From an uncultured Sphingorhabdus sp. (GTDB taxonomy: Bacteria; Pseudomonadota; Alphaproteobacteria; Sphingomonadales; Sphingomonadaceae): a stretch of 64,000 nt of DNA. Positions 28,273-37,012 of the stretch are shown one piece after another (positions within the stretch are counted from its first letter, which is position 1; each line of letters opens with the position of its first letter). The translations under genes and the position numbers were made by a program. The DNA lies in the NCBI GenBank assembly GCA_947492905.1, contig CANLOL010000001.1, forward strand, positions 1,404,578-1,468,577, given 5' to 3'. The notes under the pieces were generated by a model that was not told the origin of the DNA, ran no database searches, and was given only the letters and a program-made list of their open reading frames with translations.

Positions 28273-30387
28273 ATGCCAACCCTGCACAAACGCACTTGCC
28301 ATATCTGCGAAGCCAATTGCGGCGTCATTGTCGAGATGGAGGGGCGCAAAACTTTGTCCATTCGCGGCAATCCCGATCATGTTTTGAGCCGTGGACATAT
28401 TTGCCCAAAGGCAACGGCAATAGCTGATTTACAGGATGACCCAGATCGTTTGCGCAAGCCGCTCAAAAAAGTGGATGGCGCATGGCAAGAGATTGAATGG
28501 GACACAGCCTTTGATGAAATAGCGGATAAATTGGCCAAGCTGAAATCAGAGGGTAAGCGCAATGCGCTTTATATGGGCAACCCCAATGCGCATGATTATT
28601 CGGTCACATTAACGGTCGGTATGTTCCGCAGGATATTGGGCCTGCGTGAAATTTATTCGGCATCTACGCTCGACCAAATCCCCCATCATTTATCGCAACT
28701 GCTGATGTATGGGCATGTATCCTTAGCCGCTGTTCCCGATATTGACCGCTGTATGAATTTGGTGATTTTGGGCGGTAATCCAGCCGCATCCAATGGCAGC
28801 CTGTGGACTGTGCCCGATTTCAAAAAACGCGCCAAAGAAATGCAAGCGCGCGGCGGCACTATGACGGTGGTAGATCCGCGCCGCAGCGAAACGGCAAAGC
28901 TTGCCGATTATCATCATTTTATCAAACCCGGCACAGATACAGCGCTGTTAATTGCCATATTCAAAGCCCTAGAAGCTGGGGATATGATTAACCCTGATGC
29001 GCATCAAAACCTAAGCGCTCATCTGGATGATGGTCTGCCAAAAGCTATAAAAGCATTGGCCGATTTTAACATAAAGCAGCTATCGGAATTTTGCGGCATT
29101 AGCGAGGATGACATATTTAGCATTGCTGCGCGATTGGGCGGCGATACGCCATCGGCGCTTTATGGCCGCATGGGGGTTTCGGTTTGTGCTTTTGGCAGTT
29201 TGAACCATTGGCTCATTCAGCTGATTAATATTGCAACGGGCAATTTGAATCGGATCGGCGGCACTATGTTTGCGCAGCCCGGTTTGGATGCCGTTTCCAT
29301 TATTGGCGGCGGATCATTTCGCATGAAAGAAACGCGCAGTGGCCCGATGGGTATTGTGATGAATGAAATGTCCACAGCGGGCTTGGCCGATGACATATTG
29401 GAACCTGCTGAGGATCAAATCCGTTCTATGTTTATATTGAGCGGCAATCCCATTTTATCATCCCCGCATGGTCGGCGCTTGGATGAGGCGCTGGAATCGC
29501 TAGAACTGCTGGTATCGGTTGATATGTATATTACCGAAACTTCGCGCCATGCCGATTATATATTGCCGCCGTGCGGGCCGCTCGAAAAAGATCATTACCC
29601 CATATTTTTTGGTCCATTATCGGTGCGCAATGTCGCTAGCTATTCACCCGCAACGCTGCCGATGGAGGGGGATACAAAGGCCGATTGGCAAATTGTTGCA
29701 GGCCTAACCACCGCCATTGCAAAGGCGTTTGATGTAGATATTCCAAATATCAGAGAGCCGCGCGATTCATTGGATGCTATGCTGCAAAAATCACCCGCGG
29801 GCCTTAGTCTAGCTGATGTGGAAGCTGCGCCCGATGGTATTGATTTGGGTGCGCTGAAACCTTGTTTGCCCGATAGATTATGCACCGATGATAAGAAAAT
29901 TCGCGTTGCACCTGATATTTTGATGGGCGATTTAGAACGTTTCAAAATTGCTCTATCGGCGCAATCGGATATGAAAGACAGCCTAAGCCTTATCGGTCGC
30001 CGTCATGTGCGTAATAATAATAGCTGGCTGCACAATTCAAAACGCCTGCTGAAAGGGCCTGATCGCTGTACATTGATGATCCACCCCGATGATGCGGCCA
30101 CGCGCGCTATTCATGATGGCGATATTGTATCTGTCAAAAGCCGCGTTGGTATGGTGTCATTGGCCGCTGAGATTAGCGATGATGTGATGCAGGGTATCGT
30201 ATCTATTCCGCATGGTTTTGGCCATGATCGCGATGGTGTGAACCTCTCTGTCGCAAGTGCAAAACCGGGCGTATCGATCAATGATTTAACCGACCCTGCC
30301 TTGGTTGATCCGCTAACGGGCAATGCGGTGCTCAATGGCGTTCCAGTCATTGTCGAGAAATGCGAGAATTTGGAAGCCGCTGAATAA
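28273..30387 (+). CDS. Molybdopterin-dependent oxidoreductase
   Basis: A 704-residue protein of the DMSO reductase superfamily. The N-terminal 4Fe-4S site is CHICEANCGVIVEMEG...GHICPKA (four Cys, residues 9-48); molybdopterin guanine dinucleotide binding regions include VILGGNPAASNGS and FILSGNPILSSP, and the C-terminal dinucleotide-binding domain starts with RRHVRNNNSWLHNS. No Tat signal is present, so the enzyme is cytoplasmic. Substrate is unknown; it resembles the broad BisC/formate dehydrogenase-like group without its own electron-transfer subunit nearby. GAGGAGAGA precedes the ATG. Confidence 0.92.
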   Translation: MPTLHKRTCHICEANCGVIVEMEGRKTLSIRGNPDHVLSRGHICPKATAIADLQDDPDRLRKPLKKVDGAWQEIEWDTAFDEIADKLAKLKSEGKRNALYMGNPNAHDYSVTLTVGMFRRILGLREIYSASTLDQIPHHLSQLLMYGHVSLAAVPDIDRCMNLVILGGNPAASNGSLWTVPDFKKRAKEMQARGGTMTVVDPRRSETAKLADYHHFIKPGTDTALLIAIFKALEAGDMINPDAHQNLSAHLDDGLPKAIKALADFNIKQLSEFCGISEDDIFSIAARLGGDTPSALYGRMGVSVCAFGSLNHWLIQLINIATGNLNRIGGTMFAQPGLDAVSIIGGGSFRMKETRSGPMGIVMNEMSTAGLADDILEPAEDQIRSMFILSGNPILSSPHGRRLDEALESLELLVSVDMYITETSRHADYILPPCGPLEKDHYPIFFGPLSVRNVASYSPATLPMEGDTKADWQIVAGLTTAIAKAFDVDIPNIREPRDSLDAMLQKSPAGLSLADVEAAPDGIDLGALKPCLPDRLCTDDKKIRVAPDILMGDLERFKIALSAQSDMKDSLSLIGRRHVRNNNSWLHNSKRLLKGPDRCTLMIHPDDAATRAIHDGDIVSVKSRVGMVSLAAEISDDVMQGIVSIPHGFGHDRDGVNLSVASAKPGVSINDLTDPALVDPLTGNAVLNGVPVIVEKCENLEAAE

Positions 30388-30545
30388 GAATATCCATGAT
30401 GGGCAATATGATAACATTGTCATGCTCTAATTCACACCAATTTGCATCAATCGGCTTGACGATTTGACTCTATTTCGCCAAAGCCTTCGGTAAATGATGA
30501 GTAGAGTTTAACATGCTGTGCAGGCGGCTTTGAAGGGATATAAAA

Positions 30546-31445
30546 GTGACGGATAGTAAGCCGTTGAGTTTCCAAGATATGATTTTGCGATTGCACGCTT
30601 TTTGGGCAACGCATGGATGCGCGATATTACAACCTTATGATATGGAAATGGGTGCAGGAACATTCCACACCGCGACGACGTTGCGCGCCCTTGGCCCTGT
30701 TCCTTGGAATGCAGCCTTTGTGCAGCCGTGCCGCCGTCCTACCGATGGCCGCTATGGTGAAAATCCAAACCGATTGCAGCATTATTATCAATATCAAGTC
30801 ATCTTAAAACCATCGCCAGCCGAAATTCAGCAGCTCTATCTGGATAGCCTAAAAGAAATTGGTATTGATCCGATGCTGCACGATATAAGATTTGTTGAAG
30901 ATGATTGGGAAAGCCCAACGCTTGGCGCATGGGGTCTGGGTTGGGAAGTGTGGTGCGATGGCATGGAAGTCACGCAATTCACTTATTTTCAGCAAATGGG
31001 CGGTTTTGATTGTAAGCCTGTTGCGGGCGAGCTGACCTATGGTTTGGAACGGCTGGCCATGTATATCCAAGGCAAAGATAGTGTTTTTGATCTGGATTAT
31101 AATGGAAGCGGCGTGACCTACGGTGAAATTTTCCATGAAAATGAAGTGCAAATGAGCACATGGAATTTCGAAGTGGCGGATACTCAAACATTGTTCAAAC
31201 AATTTGAGATGGCGACAGCGGAATGCGAAAATTGCTTGGATAAAGCGCTGCCTATTCCCGCTTATGAGCAAGCGATTAAGGCCAGCCATACATTTAATCT
31301 GTTGCAAGCGCGCGGCGTTATCAGCGTCCAAGAACGGGCATCCTATATGGGCAAGGTGCGCGATTTGGCAAAAGGCGCATGCGAAAAATGGATAGAGATT
31401 AATAAAGAAGGCTGGGCGCAAAAATTCCCTGAGTGGAGTTTGTGA
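30546..31445 (+). CDS. glyQ: Glycyl-tRNA synthetase alpha subunit
   Basis: A 299-residue catalytic subunit of the heterotetrameric bacterial glycyl-tRNA synthetase. Class II motifs are visible ([36 protein letters not shown], and [15 protein letters not shown]). The start is GTG at 30546 with AAGGGA upstream. Length is normal. It is normally followed closely by glyS; here 417 bases of repeat-rich spacer intervene. Confidence 0.97.
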
Positions 31446-31474
31446 TGATGGAGATTGTAAACGATTATATTGAC

Positions 31475-31605
31475 GCCGTTCGTCTTGAGCCTGTCGCCAG
31501 AAACGCCGTTCGTCTTGAGCCTGTCGCCAGAAACACCGTTCGTCCTGAGCCTGTCGAAGGACAAGATGGCGTCGTTCATGCTTCGACAAGCTTAGCACGA
31601 ACGGC
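31475..31605. repeat. Palindromic repeat array, family A
   Basis: Two identical 30-base units (31475-31504 and 31505-31534) and a third related unit (31535-31560) are followed by an inverted half copy (about 31580-31605, CTTCGACAAGCTTAGCACGA). The outer parts form a long imperfect hairpin. The same family lies twice inside glyS. I know such CTTCGACAAGCTCAG repeats as abundant elements of sphingomonad and some other alphaproteobacterial genomes. Confidence 0.85.
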
Positions 31606-31698
31606 AAAGATATTGGATCAAAAGAAGCTTACCGATTTTGTCGAAGGACAGGTGATGCGCTCATACTTCGATAAATTCAGCACGAGCGGAGCAATGGC

Positions 31699-31866
31699 AT
31701 GAGCGATTTTCTATCCACTTTCTGTTATTGCGCCACCAGTTGCTATCCCACCACCACTCGTCACCCTGAATTTATTTCAGGGTCTAACGATATACTGAAC
31801 CAAGTTCAGCATGAGGTTTTCGGGTTTCTGAACCAAGTTCAGCATGACGGGGGTGGCAGGTCATGA
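31699..31866 (+). other. Leader mini-ORF made by duplicated glyS start
   Basis: A 55-codon frame starts with the same ATGAGCGATTTTCTA as glyS, has GGAG seven bases upstream, then reads through repeat family B and stops at a TGA that overlaps the glyS ATG (ATGA). The peptide (HPEFISGSNDILNQVQHE in part) is repeat-derived. It is probably translated, since it owns what looks like the original glyS ribosome binding site, and it could couple translation into glyS. Function of the peptide itself is doubtful. Confidence 0.55.
31763..31858. repeat. Palindromic repeat, family B
   Basis: CACCCTGAATTTATTTCAGGGTC forms a short hairpin at the left; two identical 20-base units, CTGAACCAAGTTCAGCATGA (31795-31814 and 31828-31847), follow, each itself nearly palindromic (CTGAAC/GTTCAG). 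The unit resembles another common sphingomonad repeat (TGAACTTGTTTCAG type). Confidence 0.8.
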
Positions 31867-34241
31867 GCGATTTTCTACTTGAATTACGATGCGAAGAAAT
31901 CCCCGCCAGAATGCAGGCCAAGGCCCGCGCTGATTTGGAGAAATTATTCACAGCCCAGCTTAAAGATGCAGGGTTAGAAGCATCAAGCATTACCACTTAT
32001 AGCACGCCGCGGCGTTTAGCATTGATAGCGCGCGGATTGCCCATGCAAACCGAAGCGGTGAGCGAAGAGCGCAAAGGGCCAGCGGCAAATGCGCCCGAAC
32101 AAGCGCTAGCAGGTTTCTTGCGCAGCACAGGGTTAAATCGCGAAGATTTGGTCGAGCGCGAGGTCAAAGGCAAAGCGGTGCTTTTTGCTATTATCGAAAA
32201 ACCGGGCCAGCCCACGACGGATATATTGGCGGCTGCTATCCCCGCGATTATAGCGGCATTTCCATGGCCCAAGTCACAGCGCTGGGGCGAAGAAAGCATC
32301 AGTAGCGAGAGTTTACGCTGGGTGCGGCCATTATCGAGTATCATCGCATTATTTGATGGTGATGTGGTTGATTGCGAAGTGCATGGTATACAATCGGGCC
32401 GCGAAACTATGGGCCATCGTTTTATGGCGAACAATGCCGTTTGTGCTGAGCCTGTCGAAGCGCGAGAAACCAATTCTAACACCCTTCGACAAGCTCAGGG
32501 CGAACGGGATTCTAATAGCGCTATCACAATTGAAACGGCCAATGATTATGCCGATACATTGCGCGTTGCTCATGTGATAGTCGATCATGAAGAACGGCAA
32601 AATATTGTGCGCGATGGTGCAGCAAAAGCGGCTAGCGATGTAGGGTTATCTCTTGTCGAAGACGAAGGCCTTGTGATTGAAAATGCAGGTTTGACCGAAT
32701 GGCCAGTGCCGCTCTTGGGCCGTTTTGATGAAGCTTTTTTGGATGTCCCCGAAGAGGTTATTCAGCTTACCACGCGCATTAATCAGAAATATTTTGTTGC
32801 CAGAGAGAAACAGCGCGATAGTGGCGGTAAATTGACCAACGCCTTTGTATGTACCGCGAACATACACGCGATTGACGGCGGCGCTGCGATTGTGGCGGGC
32901 AATGAAAAAGTCTTGGCGGCGCGACTGGGCGATGCGAAATTCTTTTGGGAATTGGATCAGAAAACGCCATTGGCAGTTCATGCCGAAAAATTATCGAATA
33001 TCGTGTTTCATGAAAAGCTTGGAACAGTGGCCGATAAGGTAGAGCGGATTGCGAAATTGGCGCGCTGGCTATGCGAAGAAGGTATTGTTAAACCGCTCGC
33101 CAATAACACCGTTCGTCCTGAGCTTGTCGAAGGACAGGATCATACCGTTCATACTTCGACAAGCTCAGCACGAACGGCTGTAGAGCTTGCTGATTTGGCC
33201 GAGCAAGCGGCGAAACTATGTAAGGCCGATTTGGTCACCGAAATGGTGGGTGAGTTTCCTGAATTGCAAGGGCTAATGGGCGGATATTATGCCGCGAAAG
33301 AAGGATTGCCAATCGAAGTATCCGATGCGATCCGCGATCATTATAAACCCGTGGGCCAAAGCGATGATGTGCCGAGCGCACCTGTTACAGTTGCAGTGTC
33401 TCTGGCCGATAAGTTGGATACTTTGTCTGGTTTCTTCGCAGAAGATATGATCCCAACTGGGTCAAAAGATCCATTTGCGCTTCGACGGGCGGCGCTGGCT
33501 GTCATAAGATTGCTATCAAAAAACAATATAAGGCTAAACCTTCTTGATCCGATGTTTCTTGTAGAGAACATGCGTAATTCCAATGTCCCAGAAGATTTTC
33601 GGTTAGAAATAGAGAAGACGATACGCGGCGCTTTTACTGGAAGTTTCGTAACAAATTTAGATGGGTTTCCTGCAGCGTTGCTGGCTATCAGAGTTTTCCA
33701 GTATGTAGACTTCTTCGCTGACCGTCTAAAGGTTCAGCAAAAAGAGGCGGGTGTGCGTCATGATTTGATTGACGCTGTGTTTGCGCTTGGCGGCGAGGAT
33801 GATTTGGTGCGTCTGCTGGCCCGTGTTCATGCTTTGCAGGATTTTGTTACCACCGATGATGGTGTGAATTTATTGGCGGGTTATAAACGCGCATCCAATA
33901 TCCTCAAAAAAGAAGCACCAGATACTCTTGATAAGAGTGGCGATACGAACAATAGTGAAATTGTTATTTTTGAAGCACCATCGGATGAACCAGCGCAATC
34001 TACGGCCTTGCAAAATGCCTTGAATGCAGCGGAACCAAAGGCCGTCGCCGCCATTGAAAGCGAAGATTTCGAAGGCGCGATGAGCGCGCTAGCATCATTG
34101 CGCACGCCCATTGATGCATTTTTCGATAATGTCATGGTCAATGACGAAGATGAATCAAAGAAAAAATATAGATTAGGTTTATTATCGCGTTTCCGTGATG
34201 CAGTGCACCGCGTAGCCGATTTTTCCAAGATAGAAGGTTGA
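31863..34241 (+). CDS. glyS: Glycyl-tRNA synthetase beta subunit, with in-frame repeat insertions
   Basis: A 792-residue beta subunit, which binds tRNA-Gly and supports the alpha subunit; E. coli GlyS has about 690 residues. The family start FLLELRCEEIPARMQ and central DKLDTLSGFFAEDMIPTGSKDPFALRRAALAVIRLL are intact, and the C-terminal anticodon-binding domain ends with RYRLGLLSRFRDAVHRVADFSKIEG-like residues. Two segments are repeat-derived: residues about 192-216 (CAEPVEARE...LRQAQGER) and 416-438 (TVRPELVEGQ...TSTSSARTA). Both keep the frame, so the protein is probably functional with surface loops. The ribosome binding site before this ATG is weak; see the leader ORF. Confidence 0.93.
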   Translation: MSDFLLELRCEEIPARMQAKARADLEKLFTAQLKDAGLEASSITTYSTPRRLALIARGLPMQTEAVSEERKGPAANAPEQALAGFLRSTGLNREDLVEREVKGKAVLFAIIEKPGQPTTDILAAAIPAIIAAFPWPKSQRWGEESISSESLRWVRPLSSIIALFDGDVVDCEVHGIQSGRETMGHRFMANNAVCAEPVEARETNSNTLRQAQGERDSNSAITIETANDYADTLRVAHVIVDHEERQNIVRDGAAKAASDVGLSLVEDEGLVIENAGLTEWPVPLLGRFDEAFLDVPEEVIQLTTRINQKYFVAREKQRDSGGKLTNAFVCTANIHAIDGGAAIVAGNEKVLAARLGDAKFFWELDQKTPLAVHAEKLSNIVFHEKLGTVADKVERIAKLARWLCEEGIVKPLANNTVRPELVEGQDHTVHTSTSSARTAVELADLAEQAAKLCKADLVTEMVGEFPELQGLMGGYYAAKEGLPIEVSDAIRDHYKPVGQSDDVPSAPVTVAVSLADKLDTLSGFFAEDMIPTGSKDPFALRRAALAVIRLLSKNNIRLNLLDPMFLVENMRNSNVPEDFRLEIEKTIRGAFTGSFVTNLDGFPAALLAIRVFQYVDFFADRLKVQQKEAGVRHDLIDAVFALGGEDDLVRLLARVHALQDFVTTDDGVNLLAGYKRASNILKKEAPDTLDKSGDTNNSEIVIFEAPSDEPAQSTALQNALNAAEPKAVAAIESEDFEGAMSALASLRTPIDAFFDNVMVNDEDESKKKYRLGLLSRFRDAVHRVADFSKIEG
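32437..32508. repeat. Family A repeat inserted in glyS (copy 1)
   Basis: GCTGAGCCTGTCGAAGCGC is followed after about 17 bases by the inverted copy CCTTCGACAAGCTCAGGGCG, forming a hairpin. The 72-base length is a multiple of three, so the reading frame is kept. Confidence 0.85.
33108..33177. repeat. Family A repeat inserted in glyS (copy 2)
   Basis: ACCGTTCGTCCTGAGCTTGT... and the inverted ACTTCGACAAGCTCAGCACG flank a short centre. The two arms can form a stem of about 25 bases. It encodes TVRPELVEG and TSTSSARTA in the glyS frame. Confidence 0.87.
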
Positions 34242-34342
34242 TAAGTTTCTCACACAATAAGACGTATTACTATAATCAAACGAAGTTTATAATGATGTTT
34301 CTCCCCAAGAAATACCATCATCAATATGAGGGCTAAGAAAAG

Positions 34343-37012
34343 ATGACCCAGAATAAACAATATGTATTTCGATTTGGCGGCGGTATTGCCGAGGGCAATG
34401 CGGGTGATAAAAACCTGCTTGGTGGCAAAGGTGCGAACCTAGCCGAAATGGCGAGCATTGGGCTGCCAGTGCCTCCGGGATTTACGGTTAGCACTGAAAT
34501 GTGCACACGCTATTATGATGATGGCGAGGTTTATCCCGATAGCCTGCGCGAAGAAATTGCCAATGGCATTGCGCATATTGAGGAAATAACGGGCAAAAGC
34601 TTTGGCGATACTTCTGACCCGCTGCTGGTTTCTGTGCGCTCTGGTGCGCGTGTCTCTATGCCCGGTATGATGGACACTGTGCTCAACCTTGGGCTTAATG
34701 ATGAAACCGTCGTGGGCCTTGCCCAGACATCGGGCGATGATCGCTTCGCATGGGATAGCTATCGCCGTTTTGTGCAAATGTATGCTGATGTGGTGCTGGG
34801 GGTTGACCATGGATTGTTCGAAGAAGCATTAGAAATCACCAAAGAAGATAATGGTTTTTTCACCGATACTGAATTGGAAGCTGGACATTGGGAATCTCTT
34901 GTTGGCGAATATAAAAAGATTGTCGAAAATGAATATGGCAAGCCTTTCCCCCAAGATGTGCATGAGCAATTATGGGGTGCGATGACCGCAGTGTTTGGTA
35001 GCTGGGAATCAGACCGTGCTAAGGTCTACCGCCGCTTGAATGATATTTCGAGCGCATGGGGCACAGCGGTGAATATCCAAGCGATGGTATTTGGTAATAT
35101 GGGCGAGACTTCGGCAACGGGTGTTGCCTTTACTAGAAATCCATCGGATGGTGATGCGCGCTATTATGGTGAGTTCCTAATCAATGCACAGGGCGAAGAT
35201 GTGGTCGCCGGTATCCGCACGCCGCAATATTTAACGCTGGCTGCGCGCGAAGAAGCGGGTGCGAAACCATTGTCGATGGAAGAAGCTATGCCAGAGACAT
35301 TTACCGAGCTTGCCGGTGTTTTCGATATGTTAGAGAAACATTATCGCGATATGCAGGATATTGAATTTACGGTGGAGCGCGGCAAATTATGGATGCTGCA
35401 AACGCGTAGCGGTAAGCGCACGGCCAAAGCGGCGCTGAAAATTGCCGTTGATATGGTTGCGGAAAAGCTGATTAGCGAAGATGAAGCGGTGCTGCGCGTT
35501 GACCCTATGGCGCTTGATCAATTATTGCATCCTACATTGGACCCTGATGCGCACCGTGATGTGGTGACCAAAGGCTTGCCGGCATCGCCGGGCGCCGCAT
35601 CGGGCATTATCACATTTGATGCTGATACGGCTGAGAAACGCAATGAAATGGGCGATAGCGTGATTTTGGTGCGTATTGAAACATCTCCCGAAGATATTCA
35701 CGGCATGCACGCCGCTAGAGGCATATTAACAGCGCGCGGCGGTATGACGAGCCATGCTGCGGTTGTAGCGCGCGGCATGGGGCGTCCATGCGTATCGGGT
35801 GCTGGTTCGCTGATTATCGATGCAAAGGCCAAGACTTTGCGCGTGGGCGATCGTAGTTTTGGCGAAGGTGATTTGCTGACCATTGATGGATCGAACGGCG
35901 AAGTGATGGCAGGCGAAGTGGCTACTTTGCAACCCGAATTGGTCGGTGATTTTGGTACGCTGATGGTTTGGGCGGATAAAGGACGCAGGCTGAATGTGCG
36001 CGCCAATGCAGAGACGCCTTTGGATGCACAAGTTGCGCGTGATTTTGGCGCAGAGGGTATTGGGCTGTGCCGCACCGAGCATATGTTCTTTGATGCAGCC
36101 CGTATCGCCGCCGTGCGCGAGATGATTTTGGCCGACAAAGAAAAAGGCCGCCGCGTAGCTCTGGAAAAATTATTACCCGAACAACGCAGCGATTTTGCGG
36201 CTTTGTTTGAAGTGATGGCAGGATTGCCGGTTACAATACGTTTGCTCGATCCACCTTTGCACGAATTTTTGCCGCACCATGAGAGCGAATTTGCTGTTGT
36301 GGCCGAAGCGGCTGGCGTAAGCGTCGATGTGCTCAAACAGCGCGCTGCTGAATTGCATGAATTTAACCCAATGCTGGGCCATAGAGGGTGCCGACTTGGC
36401 GTTACCTATCCAGAGATTTATGAGATGCAAGCGCGGGCGATATTTGAGGCCGCATTGGACGTAGCAGCCAAAAGCGGTGCTGCGCCAATCCCAGAGATTA
36501 TGGTGCCATTGGTCGGCACGAAACGCGAGCTTGAATTGATGAAAGATGTCATCGATCAAACAGCTAAAGCGGTGTTTGCCGAGCGCGATAGCAAAGTTGA
36601 ATATTTGGTTGGCACAATGATCGAATTACCGCGCGCGGCATTGATGGCGGATAAAATTGCCGAAACGGGCGAGTTTTTCTCTTTTGGTACGAATGATTTA
36701 ACGCAAACCACATTGGGCGTATCGCGCGATGATGCGGCGCGTTTCCTAACCCAATATGTCGATAAAGGCATATATGCGCGTGATCCATTTGTCAGCCTCG
36801 ACATTGAAGGCGTTGGCCAATTAATCGAATTAGCAGCGCAGCGCGGACGCGCGACAAAGCCCGATATTAAGCTTGGGATTTGCGGCGAACATGGCGGCGA
36901 TCCCGAATCAATTGCATTTTGTGAGAAAATCGGCCTCGATTATGTCAGCGCATCGCCATATCGTGTTCCCATTGCCCGATTAGCAGCAGCACAAGCAGCG
37001 CTGCGGAAATAG
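34343..37012 (+). CDS. ppdK: Pyruvate, phosphate dikinase
   Basis: An 889-residue enzyme that converts pyruvate, ATP and phosphate reversibly to phosphoenolpyruvate, AMP and pyrophosphate. Domains in order: ATP-grasp nucleotide-binding (residues 1-340, GGKGANLAEMASIGLPVPPGFT), phosphohistidine domain with GGMTSHAAVVARGMGRPCVSG (catalytic His at about 457), and PEP/pyruvate barrel with GLCRTEHMFF and the active-site GICGEHGGDP cysteine. Full length. Single gene; with aceA it would allow gluconeogenesis from acetate. GGGCTAAGAAAAG precedes the ATG. Confidence 0.97.
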   Translation: MTQNKQYVFRFGGGIAEGNAGDKNLLGGKGANLAEMASIGLPVPPGFTVSTEMCTRYYDDGEVYPDSLREEIANGIAHIEEITGKSFGDTSDPLLVSVRSGARVSMPGMMDTVLNLGLNDETVVGLAQTSGDDRFAWDSYRRFVQMYADVVLGVDHGLFEEALEITKEDNGFFTDTELEAGHWESLVGEYKKIVENEYGKPFPQDVHEQLWGAMTAVFGSWESDRAKVYRRLNDISSAWGTAVNIQAMVFGNMGETSATGVAFTRNPSDGDARYYGEFLINAQGEDVVAGIRTPQYLTLAAREEAGAKPLSMEEAMPETFTELAGVFDMLEKHYRDMQDIEFTVERGKLWMLQTRSGKRTAKAALKIAVDMVAEKLISEDEAVLRVDPMALDQLLHPTLDPDAHRDVVTKGLPASPGAASGIITFDADTAEKRNEMGDSVILVRIETSPEDIHGMHAARGILTARGGMTSHAAVVARGMGRPCVSGAGSLIIDAKAKTLRVGDRSFGEGDLLTIDGSNGEVMAGEVATLQPELVGDFGTLMVWADKGRRLNVRANAETPLDAQVARDFGAEGIGLCRTEHMFFDAARIAAVREMILADKEKGRRVALEKLLPEQRSDFAALFEVMAGLPVTIRLLDPPLHEFLPHHESEFAVVAEAAGVSVDVLKQRAAELHEFNPMLGHRGCRLGVTYPEIYEMQARAIFEAALDVAAKSGAAPIPEIMVPLVGTKRELELMKDVIDQTAKAVFAERDSKVEYLVGTMIELPRAALMADKIAETGEFFSFGTNDLTQTTLGVSRDDAARFLTQYVDKGIYARDPFVSLDIEGVGQLIELAAQRGRATKPDIKLGICGEHGGDPESIAFCEKIGLDYVSASPYRVPIARLAAAQAALRK

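Follow-up and report, generated by a model that had tools for sequence, protein, structure and literature searches.

We analyzed a 64,000-nucleotide (nt) stretch of an uncultured Sphingorhabdus sp. genome (contig CANLOL010000001.1; hereafter the window), in which the genes for the two subunits of glycyl-tRNA synthetase, glyQ and glyS, are separated by repeat sequence read as two short open reading frames (ORFs). Comparison of this junction with its counterparts across the order Sphingomonadales indicates that inserts at translationally coupled junctions probably persist only as relay ORFs that preserve termination-reinitiation. The observations behind this reading are the anatomy of the junction, an open relay frame conserved among related inserts, little bridging at a spaced junction, and one insert-free nuoF site. 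For the lineage of the window, we infer that the ancestral junction was an overlap; the relay ORFs would be translated, and translation of glyS would depend on them.

In the proposed mechanism, stop and start would have overlapped at the ancestral glyQ–glyS junction, and ribosomes finishing glyQ would have restarted there on glyS by termination-reinitiation. Mobile palindromic repeats would have entered glyS at its start or immediately past it, duplicating that start at least once and leaving the intact glyS downstream, with the old start position heading a short ORF. An insert of 37 to 805 nt is expected to break the coupling, except where a relay ORF brings back the spacing at each of its two ends; because reinitiation spans few nucleotides, inserts would have been kept only with an open ORF whose stop meets the next start. 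In the window, two relay ORFs would pass the ribosome along from glyQ to glyS by way of three overlaps, and the same rule would govern varied repeats at glyQ–glyS throughout the order, as well as in this genome's nuo operon. The features of the junction, in window coordinates, are as follows.

30546 to 31445, forward strand: glyQ, glycyl-tRNA synthetase alpha subunit (PF02091, E 2.7e-145; NF006827 equivalog), stop TGA at 31443–31445
31435 to 31438, forward strand: GGAG in the glyQ tail, 6 nt 5' of the ATG at 31445 (from the sequence read and insert-free relatives)
31445 to 31702, forward strand: relay ORF1, 85 codons, mostly repeat family A, stop at 31700–31702
31473 to 31562, forward strand: repeat family A, three 30-nt copies head-to-tail (direct-repeat family D1)
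31581 to 31689, forward strand: repeat family A, opposite arms at 31581–31604 and 31666–31689 (families D2, I1, I3, I4)
31688 to 31691, forward strand: GGAG 5' of ORF2, at the end of repeat family A (from the sequence read)
31698 to 31713, forward strand: duplicated glyS start, copy 1 (CATGAGCGATTTTCTA), with a diverged counterpart in the related genome G013
31699 to 31866, forward strand: relay ORF2, 55 codons, its stop TGA at 31864–31866 overlapping the glyS ATG at 31863 as ATGA
31760 to 31849, forward strand: repeat family B, GTCACCCTGAA..TTCAGGGTC plus two CTGAACCAAGTTCAGCATGA units (from the repeat search and sequence read)
31862 to 31877, forward strand: duplicated glyS start, copy 2, the glyS start itself
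31863 to 34241, forward strand: glyS, glycyl-tRNA synthetase beta subunit (PF02092, E 6.4e-177; TIGR00211)
32437 to 32507, forward strand: repeat family A in frame within glyS, first insert, residues ~192–217
33109 to 33177, forward strand: repeat family A in frame within glyS, second insert, residues ~411–442

ORF1 shares TGATG with the end of glyQ and ATGA with the beginning of ORF2, and glyQ, ORF1, ORF2 and glyS form one unbroken overlap chain with spacings of –1, –4 and –4; the first step reads –4 instead of –1 if the GTG at 31442 is taken as the ORF1 start. At each step of the chain, stop and start thus lie within the few nucleotides typical of termination-reinitiation. The position at which insert-free relatives start glyS, adjoining glyQ, is the ORF1 start in the window. 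An AGGT stands one base 5' of the glyS ATG.

Much of this anatomy had been described in a sequence-only reading of the window. The 16-base duplication that it reported is real: CATGAGCGATTTTCTA occurs at the two listed sites and nowhere else in the window, even with three mismatches allowed. By our own arithmetic, an exact 16-base repeat within 200 nt is expected ~0.003 times per 64 kb, while two matches at up to three mismatches are unremarkable and were seen in 29 of 100 shuffles. The GGAG seven bases 5' of the first ATG is likewise present, and the 55-codon leader does run from 31699 through repeat B to a TGA overlapping the glyS ATG. The same reading overlooked ORF1 and the two in-frame copies of repeat family A inside glyS, and its view that the GGAG marks the old glyS ribosome binding site, left behind on the leader, proved wrong: this GGAG lies where repeat family A ends, and the old-start position is now the start of ORF1.

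Among 33 same-genus junctions, the window included, glyQ and glyS overlap by 4 nt in 14 and by 1 nt in five, and the remaining 14 carry an insert of 43 to 595 nt. Of the species with a readable junction, the two closest are G011 and G013, and each has an insert; the uninterrupted GGAG-ATGAGCGATTTTCTACTT junction was not found among them, and the assembly of another close relative, G023, yielded no glyS. In G013, a 35-codon ORF1 leads through an ATGA to a 66-codon ORF2 and through a second ATGA to glyS, ORF1 beginning 1 nt past the glyQ stop without overlap; ORF2 begins MNDFLSTL, compared with MSDFLLEL for glyS. This genome keeps a diverged first copy in the same place and the two-ORF chain, which contradicts the earlier idea of a fresh single insertion behind the 16-base copy and places the duplication of the glyS start before the split of these species. 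In G011, the alignment has a gap across the first copy, and a single insert of 595 nt has an open frame all the way between the glyQ stop and the glyS start; it looks as if the first copy was lost, seemingly by deletion, with one bridging ORF retained. The first half of this insert (L119), after the glyQ stop, contains a series of degenerate CCACCACTCGTCAC-like units, which apparently grew in number while the relay frame stayed intact.

To survey the junction across the order, we reduced 239 loci (duplicates included) to 197 distinct glyQ–glyS junctions, dropping nine loci for which automatic calling failed. We assigned 158 of the 197 to Sphingomonadales, a few of them (L056, L069 and others) carrying broad labels only. 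Gaps were below 20 nt in 99 of the 158, with 71 at –4, 18 at –1, four at –8 and six at other spacings; glyQ and glyS therefore overlap by 1 to 8 nt in 93 of the 99, and the overlap that marks termination-reinitiation pairs is kept in insert-free relatives. The other 59 junctions contain inserts of 37 to 805 nt, and exact inverted-repeat arms of at least 10 nt were present in 36 of them, whereas base shuffles predict 3.3.

We first tried, and then rejected, a loose criterion that accepted chains of up to four ORFs with gaps of –8 to +8: it scored 62 of 70 inserts as bridged against 26.6 expected, and 35 of 70 remained bridged after removal of one central base from the same inserts. As it separated real from shuffled inserts poorly, we adopted a strict test requiring a single ORF that begins in overlap with the glyQ stop and terminates at –4, –1 or –8 relative to the glyS start. 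Such one-ORF bridges were found in 50 of the 59 Sphingomonadales inserts (52 allowing up to two ORFs), while 7.3 were expected from dinucleotide shuffles in random register and 8.3 from reverse-complemented inserts. Outside Sphingomonadales, two of 11 inserts passed the strict test. Ten inserts looked protein-coding by eye (eight DUF559-like ones, L046 and L058), and with these left out, 41 of 49 were bridged against 7.3 expected under either null. Nine inserts fail the one-ORF test: two (the window and G013) form two-ORF chains, five end short of glyS, and the others are L223 and L069.

These counts bear on the simplest alternative, in which the leader ORF arose by chance, the 16-base repeat is fortuitous or unrelated, and glyS starts on its own signal. 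The AGGT preceding glyS and the glyS signal found inside the insert in many other species would fit such an account, but bridging across the 59 inserts is far above the shuffles and G013 keeps the first copy and two chained ORFs, and we consider it very unlikely. The coupling of the leader to glyS proposed in the sequence-only reading is, by contrast, strongly supported by the cross-species comparison, as far as sequence can speak to it.

ATGA or GTGA are the commonest relay ends. Third-frame leaders, of which there are 13, encounter a TGA 8 nt inside glyS in 12 cases, the thirteenth being L069. This +8 TGA is made by a glyS codon 2 of NCT type followed by GA and is also found in 15 of the 99 insert-free junctions; since the –8 class is partly defined by it, the fair measure is the 12 of 13 third-frame entries. 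An NCT codon 2 is seen in L163, L207, L224, L226, L245, L255 and other –8 junctions and may possibly represent a compensatory change in glyS.

To assess the independence of the inserts, we inferred a FastTree phylogeny from GlyQ and the GlyS N terminus (158 rows). Across its 158 taxa, inserts must have been gained or lost no fewer than 43 times; with one rooting, parsimony divided these into 26 gains and 17 losses, but as gains were nested we use only the minimum of 43. Single-linkage clustering, which merges independent copies of one repeat family, produced 18 insert clusters, the largest containing 36 of the 59 inserts. Fifteen of the 18 were bridged in every member (P ~2e-11 under the shuffle probabilities), a count that takes L123 as bridged and includes the gene-like L046 and L058 as two clusters.

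The leader peptides differ in repeat type: examples are the HPELVSGS..LKQVQHD, IPAQAGI..ACAGMT, ERSEAIQ..RNDW and SASPRE types, besides the DUF559-like inserts. Their position directly upstream of a tRNA synthetase gene could hint at functional leader peptides, or attenuator-like regulators of glycyl-tRNA synthetase. Peptide sequence, length and repeat type nevertheless vary between species, neither ORF1 nor ORF2 has a Pfam match up to E 0.1, and positions 30300–34500 contain no Rfam match at the gathering score; a regulatory role of this kind appears highly improbable.

As a control for spaced genes, we studied 58 distinct atpA–atpG junctions from the 59 best-scoring loci of one genus search and one order search. 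None of the 58 overlaps; gaps are 12 to 32 nt in 25 and at least 42 nt in 33, and many of the latter hold palindromic repeats like those at glyQ–glyS. Only two of the 33 were bridged (255 and 488 nt, both gene-like by eye), in comparison with 55 of 58 glyQ–glyS gaps under the same scoring (Fisher's test, 1.4e-18). Since atpA–atpG has no start codon overlapping the upstream stop, we also counted wholly open frames regardless of starts, and found these in 11 of 33 atpA–atpG gaps (21.5 expected) and in 54 of 58 glyQ–glyS gaps (36.5 expected). The unbridged repeats and the low count of open frames at atpA–atpG indicate that the repeats are not open by nature, and that operons tolerate unbridged repeats in front of genes whose start is not part of a stop/start overlap.

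The control also informs two further explanations. In the first, the open frame serves only to keep the hairpin-rich repeat covered by ribosomes, which would guard against Rho-dependent termination or cleavage of the mRNA, and reinitiation plays no part. The predicted RNA fold of the window insert is –146.5 kcal/mol over 417 nt, a value without a shuffle control, and an open frame would serve ribosome cover as well. Similar palindromic inserts of 84 to 140 nt are, however, tolerated unbridged at atpA–atpG; moreover, relays stop at or next to the glyS start, with a long overlap in one of 59 and a fusion to glyS in one of 59, and third-frame entries run into the +8 TGA in all cases but one. We regard protection from polarity as an unlikely sole cause.

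In the second, the elements bring their own open frame and enter only ATGA sites, and bridging owes nothing to host selection. The prevalence of ATGA and GTGA ends fits such targeting, DUF559 ORFs start and stop at –4 at other junctions too (L392, L393, L410), and mycobacterial interspersed repetitive units (MIRUs) are said to insert at start codons (PMC12548453). Against it, similar repeats at atpA–atpG are mostly unbridged, the inserts would bridge in only 8.3 of 59 cases if reverse-complemented, and inserts of varied type obey the rule. Targeting by the elements is thus rather unlikely to explain the pattern, and we return to selection for relay ORFs that preserve reinitiation as the preferred reading.

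Several points weigh against this preference. The case is built on sequence comparison. Start calling in the glyQ–glyS survey was automatic, the test was tightened to its strict form after the poor first separation (62 of 70 vs. 26.6), and inverted-repeat arms of at least 10 nt exist in only 36 of the 59 inserts. The ten protein-coding-looking inserts are open on that account, five fall short of the glyS start by 1 to 8 nt, the L223 leader reads in frame into glyS, and that of L069 overlaps glyS by 68 nt. At least four bases matching Shine-Dalgarno precede glyS in 44 of the 59 insert junctions (79 of 99 insert-free ones), making independent initiation of glyS possible in many. Similar inserts of different species may share ancestry, leaving the number of independent events uncertain. 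The control was limited to the 59 best-scoring loci, its junctions offer no start codon in overlap with the upstream stop and are thereby less likely to score, and 14 of its 33 gaps are 84 nt long, which implies fewer than 33 independent events. Finally, some repeats between codirectional genes of the window genome are unbridged; gene calling there was rough, with glyS itself assigned a wrong start and its junction scored unbridged, and we therefore did not use the repeat counts of that genome as a test.

Relay-like chains were also found in the nuo operon of the window genome (L289), where NuoD, NuoE and NuoF were identified by NCBIfam (NuoE and NuoF from N-terminal pieces below the curated cut-off) and NuoG by eye. 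Repeats lie at nuoD–E, between a small gene and nuoF, and at nuoF–G, all bridged by overlapping ORFs. Among 30 same-genus nuo loci, the nuoD–E or nuoE–F chains of ten contained repeat-signature ORFs by eye (L292, L293, L294, L297, L298, L302, L314, L317, L318 and L321); the nuoE–F chain fails in L295 and L313, and L308 was unreadable. At the nuoD–E site, the close relative G023 has a different repeat in the same place. The nuoF site of G013 (L295) is insert-free, the small gene ending in ATGA on ATGAGTTTTGATTTTC, while the window genome, G011 and G023 retain at the small gene a copy beginning ATGAGTTTTGA, with repeat B and nuoF following in that order. This supports nuoF as the clearest candidate for an insertion with gene-start duplication.

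Duplication of the gene start upon insertion, as put forward for glyS by the sequence-only reading, gains from this insert-free nuoF site and does not extend to glyQ–glyS inserts in general. A significant copy of the glyS start (P ≤ 0.01) was present within only four of the 59 inserts, two of which (L138 and L273) have it mid-insert, and we rejected target duplication as a general feature of the junction. At glyS itself, the evidence is the 16-nt flanking repeat, and the closest species provide no insert-free allele. In the window genome, the number of initial bases common to leader and gene is 15 at glyS, 11 at nuoF, eight at an lspA-like gene (identified by eye), three at nuoG and zero at nuoE; a permutation test of leader versus gene starts over these five cases was weak (P 0.04).

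MIRUs are one homogeneous repeat family of mycobacteria, whereas the inserts studied here form 18 clusters in Sphingomonadales hosts. According to a 2025 review, these short mobile repeats insert at start codons and bring in an ORF with –4 coupling to the gene, with expression little disturbed (PMC12548453); a repeat-borne ORF ending at –4 on the invaded gene is what we found in the window. The differences, drawn from descriptions, are the varied, mostly palindromic inserts in another phylum, the start duplications in some cases, the two-ORF relay, the insert-free relatives and the spaced control junction. Among the papers listed in our literature searches, we recognized none on repeat-made relay ORFs at glyQ–glyS or in Sphingomonadales, MIRUs being the one precedent (PMC12548453), and the available parts of PMC2759123 and PMC5082802 contain nothing on relay ORFs.

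Spacings of –4, –1 and –8 are the commonest among gene pairs, and short overlaps are enriched in genes for subunits of complexes (PMC10666635, PMC6728339). The junctions studied here resemble such termination-reinitiation pairs in having the same spacings between genes for subunits of one complex, but those papers test native and mutated overlaps; the main text of PMC10666635 has no words beginning "insertion" or "repeat", and PMC6728339 uses "insertion" once, on an added AUG codon. Reporters in E. coli and Haloferax lose most or all coupling at gaps of ~20 to 38 nt, and whether the overlaps common in bacteria are kept for coupling or by drift is unsettled (PMC10666635). The repeated separations of glyQ and glyS can be seen as natural gap experiments, nearly all of which kept a relay frame, unlike the repeats at the spaced junction. 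If the reading is true, repeat insertions would read out which operon junctions need coupling, and it would explain short repeat-made ORFs that gene finders may label hypothetical proteins.

Other known systems share single traits. Rickettsia palindromic elements lie in frame inside proteins (PMC10969869), as do the two family A segments in glyS; judged by description, they differ from the glyQ–glyS inserts, which are mostly separate, unfused relay ORFs. REP, BIME and REPIN sequences are likewise short palindromic repeats with many copies per genome, but the repeats here are read as ORFs across coupled junctions. The short cbrX ORF of Pseudomonas putida overlaps cbrA and is translationally coupled to it, and it tolerates changes to its peptide as long as the frame and the end stay the same; unlike the relays, cbrX is described as highly conserved and overlaps by 17 nt, with no repeat origin mentioned in the part available (PMC6591292).

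The in-frame family A stretches of glyS lie between matched segments in many relatives; for the 32437–32507 insert, G011 is an exception, its GlyS being matched as one piece.

A broader scenario, which we advance tentatively and think more doubtful than probable, is that several unrelated mobile palindromic repeats of Sphingomonadales, some with a DUF559 nuclease-like ORF, have converged on a MIRU-like lifestyle: they would enter stop/start overlaps in operons of obligate complexes, copy the start of the downstream gene and create a relay ORF. Relay ORFs would then mark coupled pairs across the order, and stacked relays may tune the subunit ratio.

Inserts of 457 to 603 nt that by eye encode a single DUF559 protein family flanked by palindromic arms were seen in L122, L140, L182, L200, L219, L227, L238 and L054; the L140 protein, the only one scanned, matches PF04480 (E 1.5e-31). 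The shorter inserts L141, L057 and L071 seem to retain the arms only, and the two kinds together suggest autonomous and nonautonomous forms of one element. Elsewhere, we tried 26 DUF559 loci, leaving out four further ones; the motif was not found in six. In seven of the 20 loci read (L384, L385, L406, L408, L392, L393 and L410), the DUF559 ORF ends at –4 on a downstream long ORF, and in the last three it also starts at –4.

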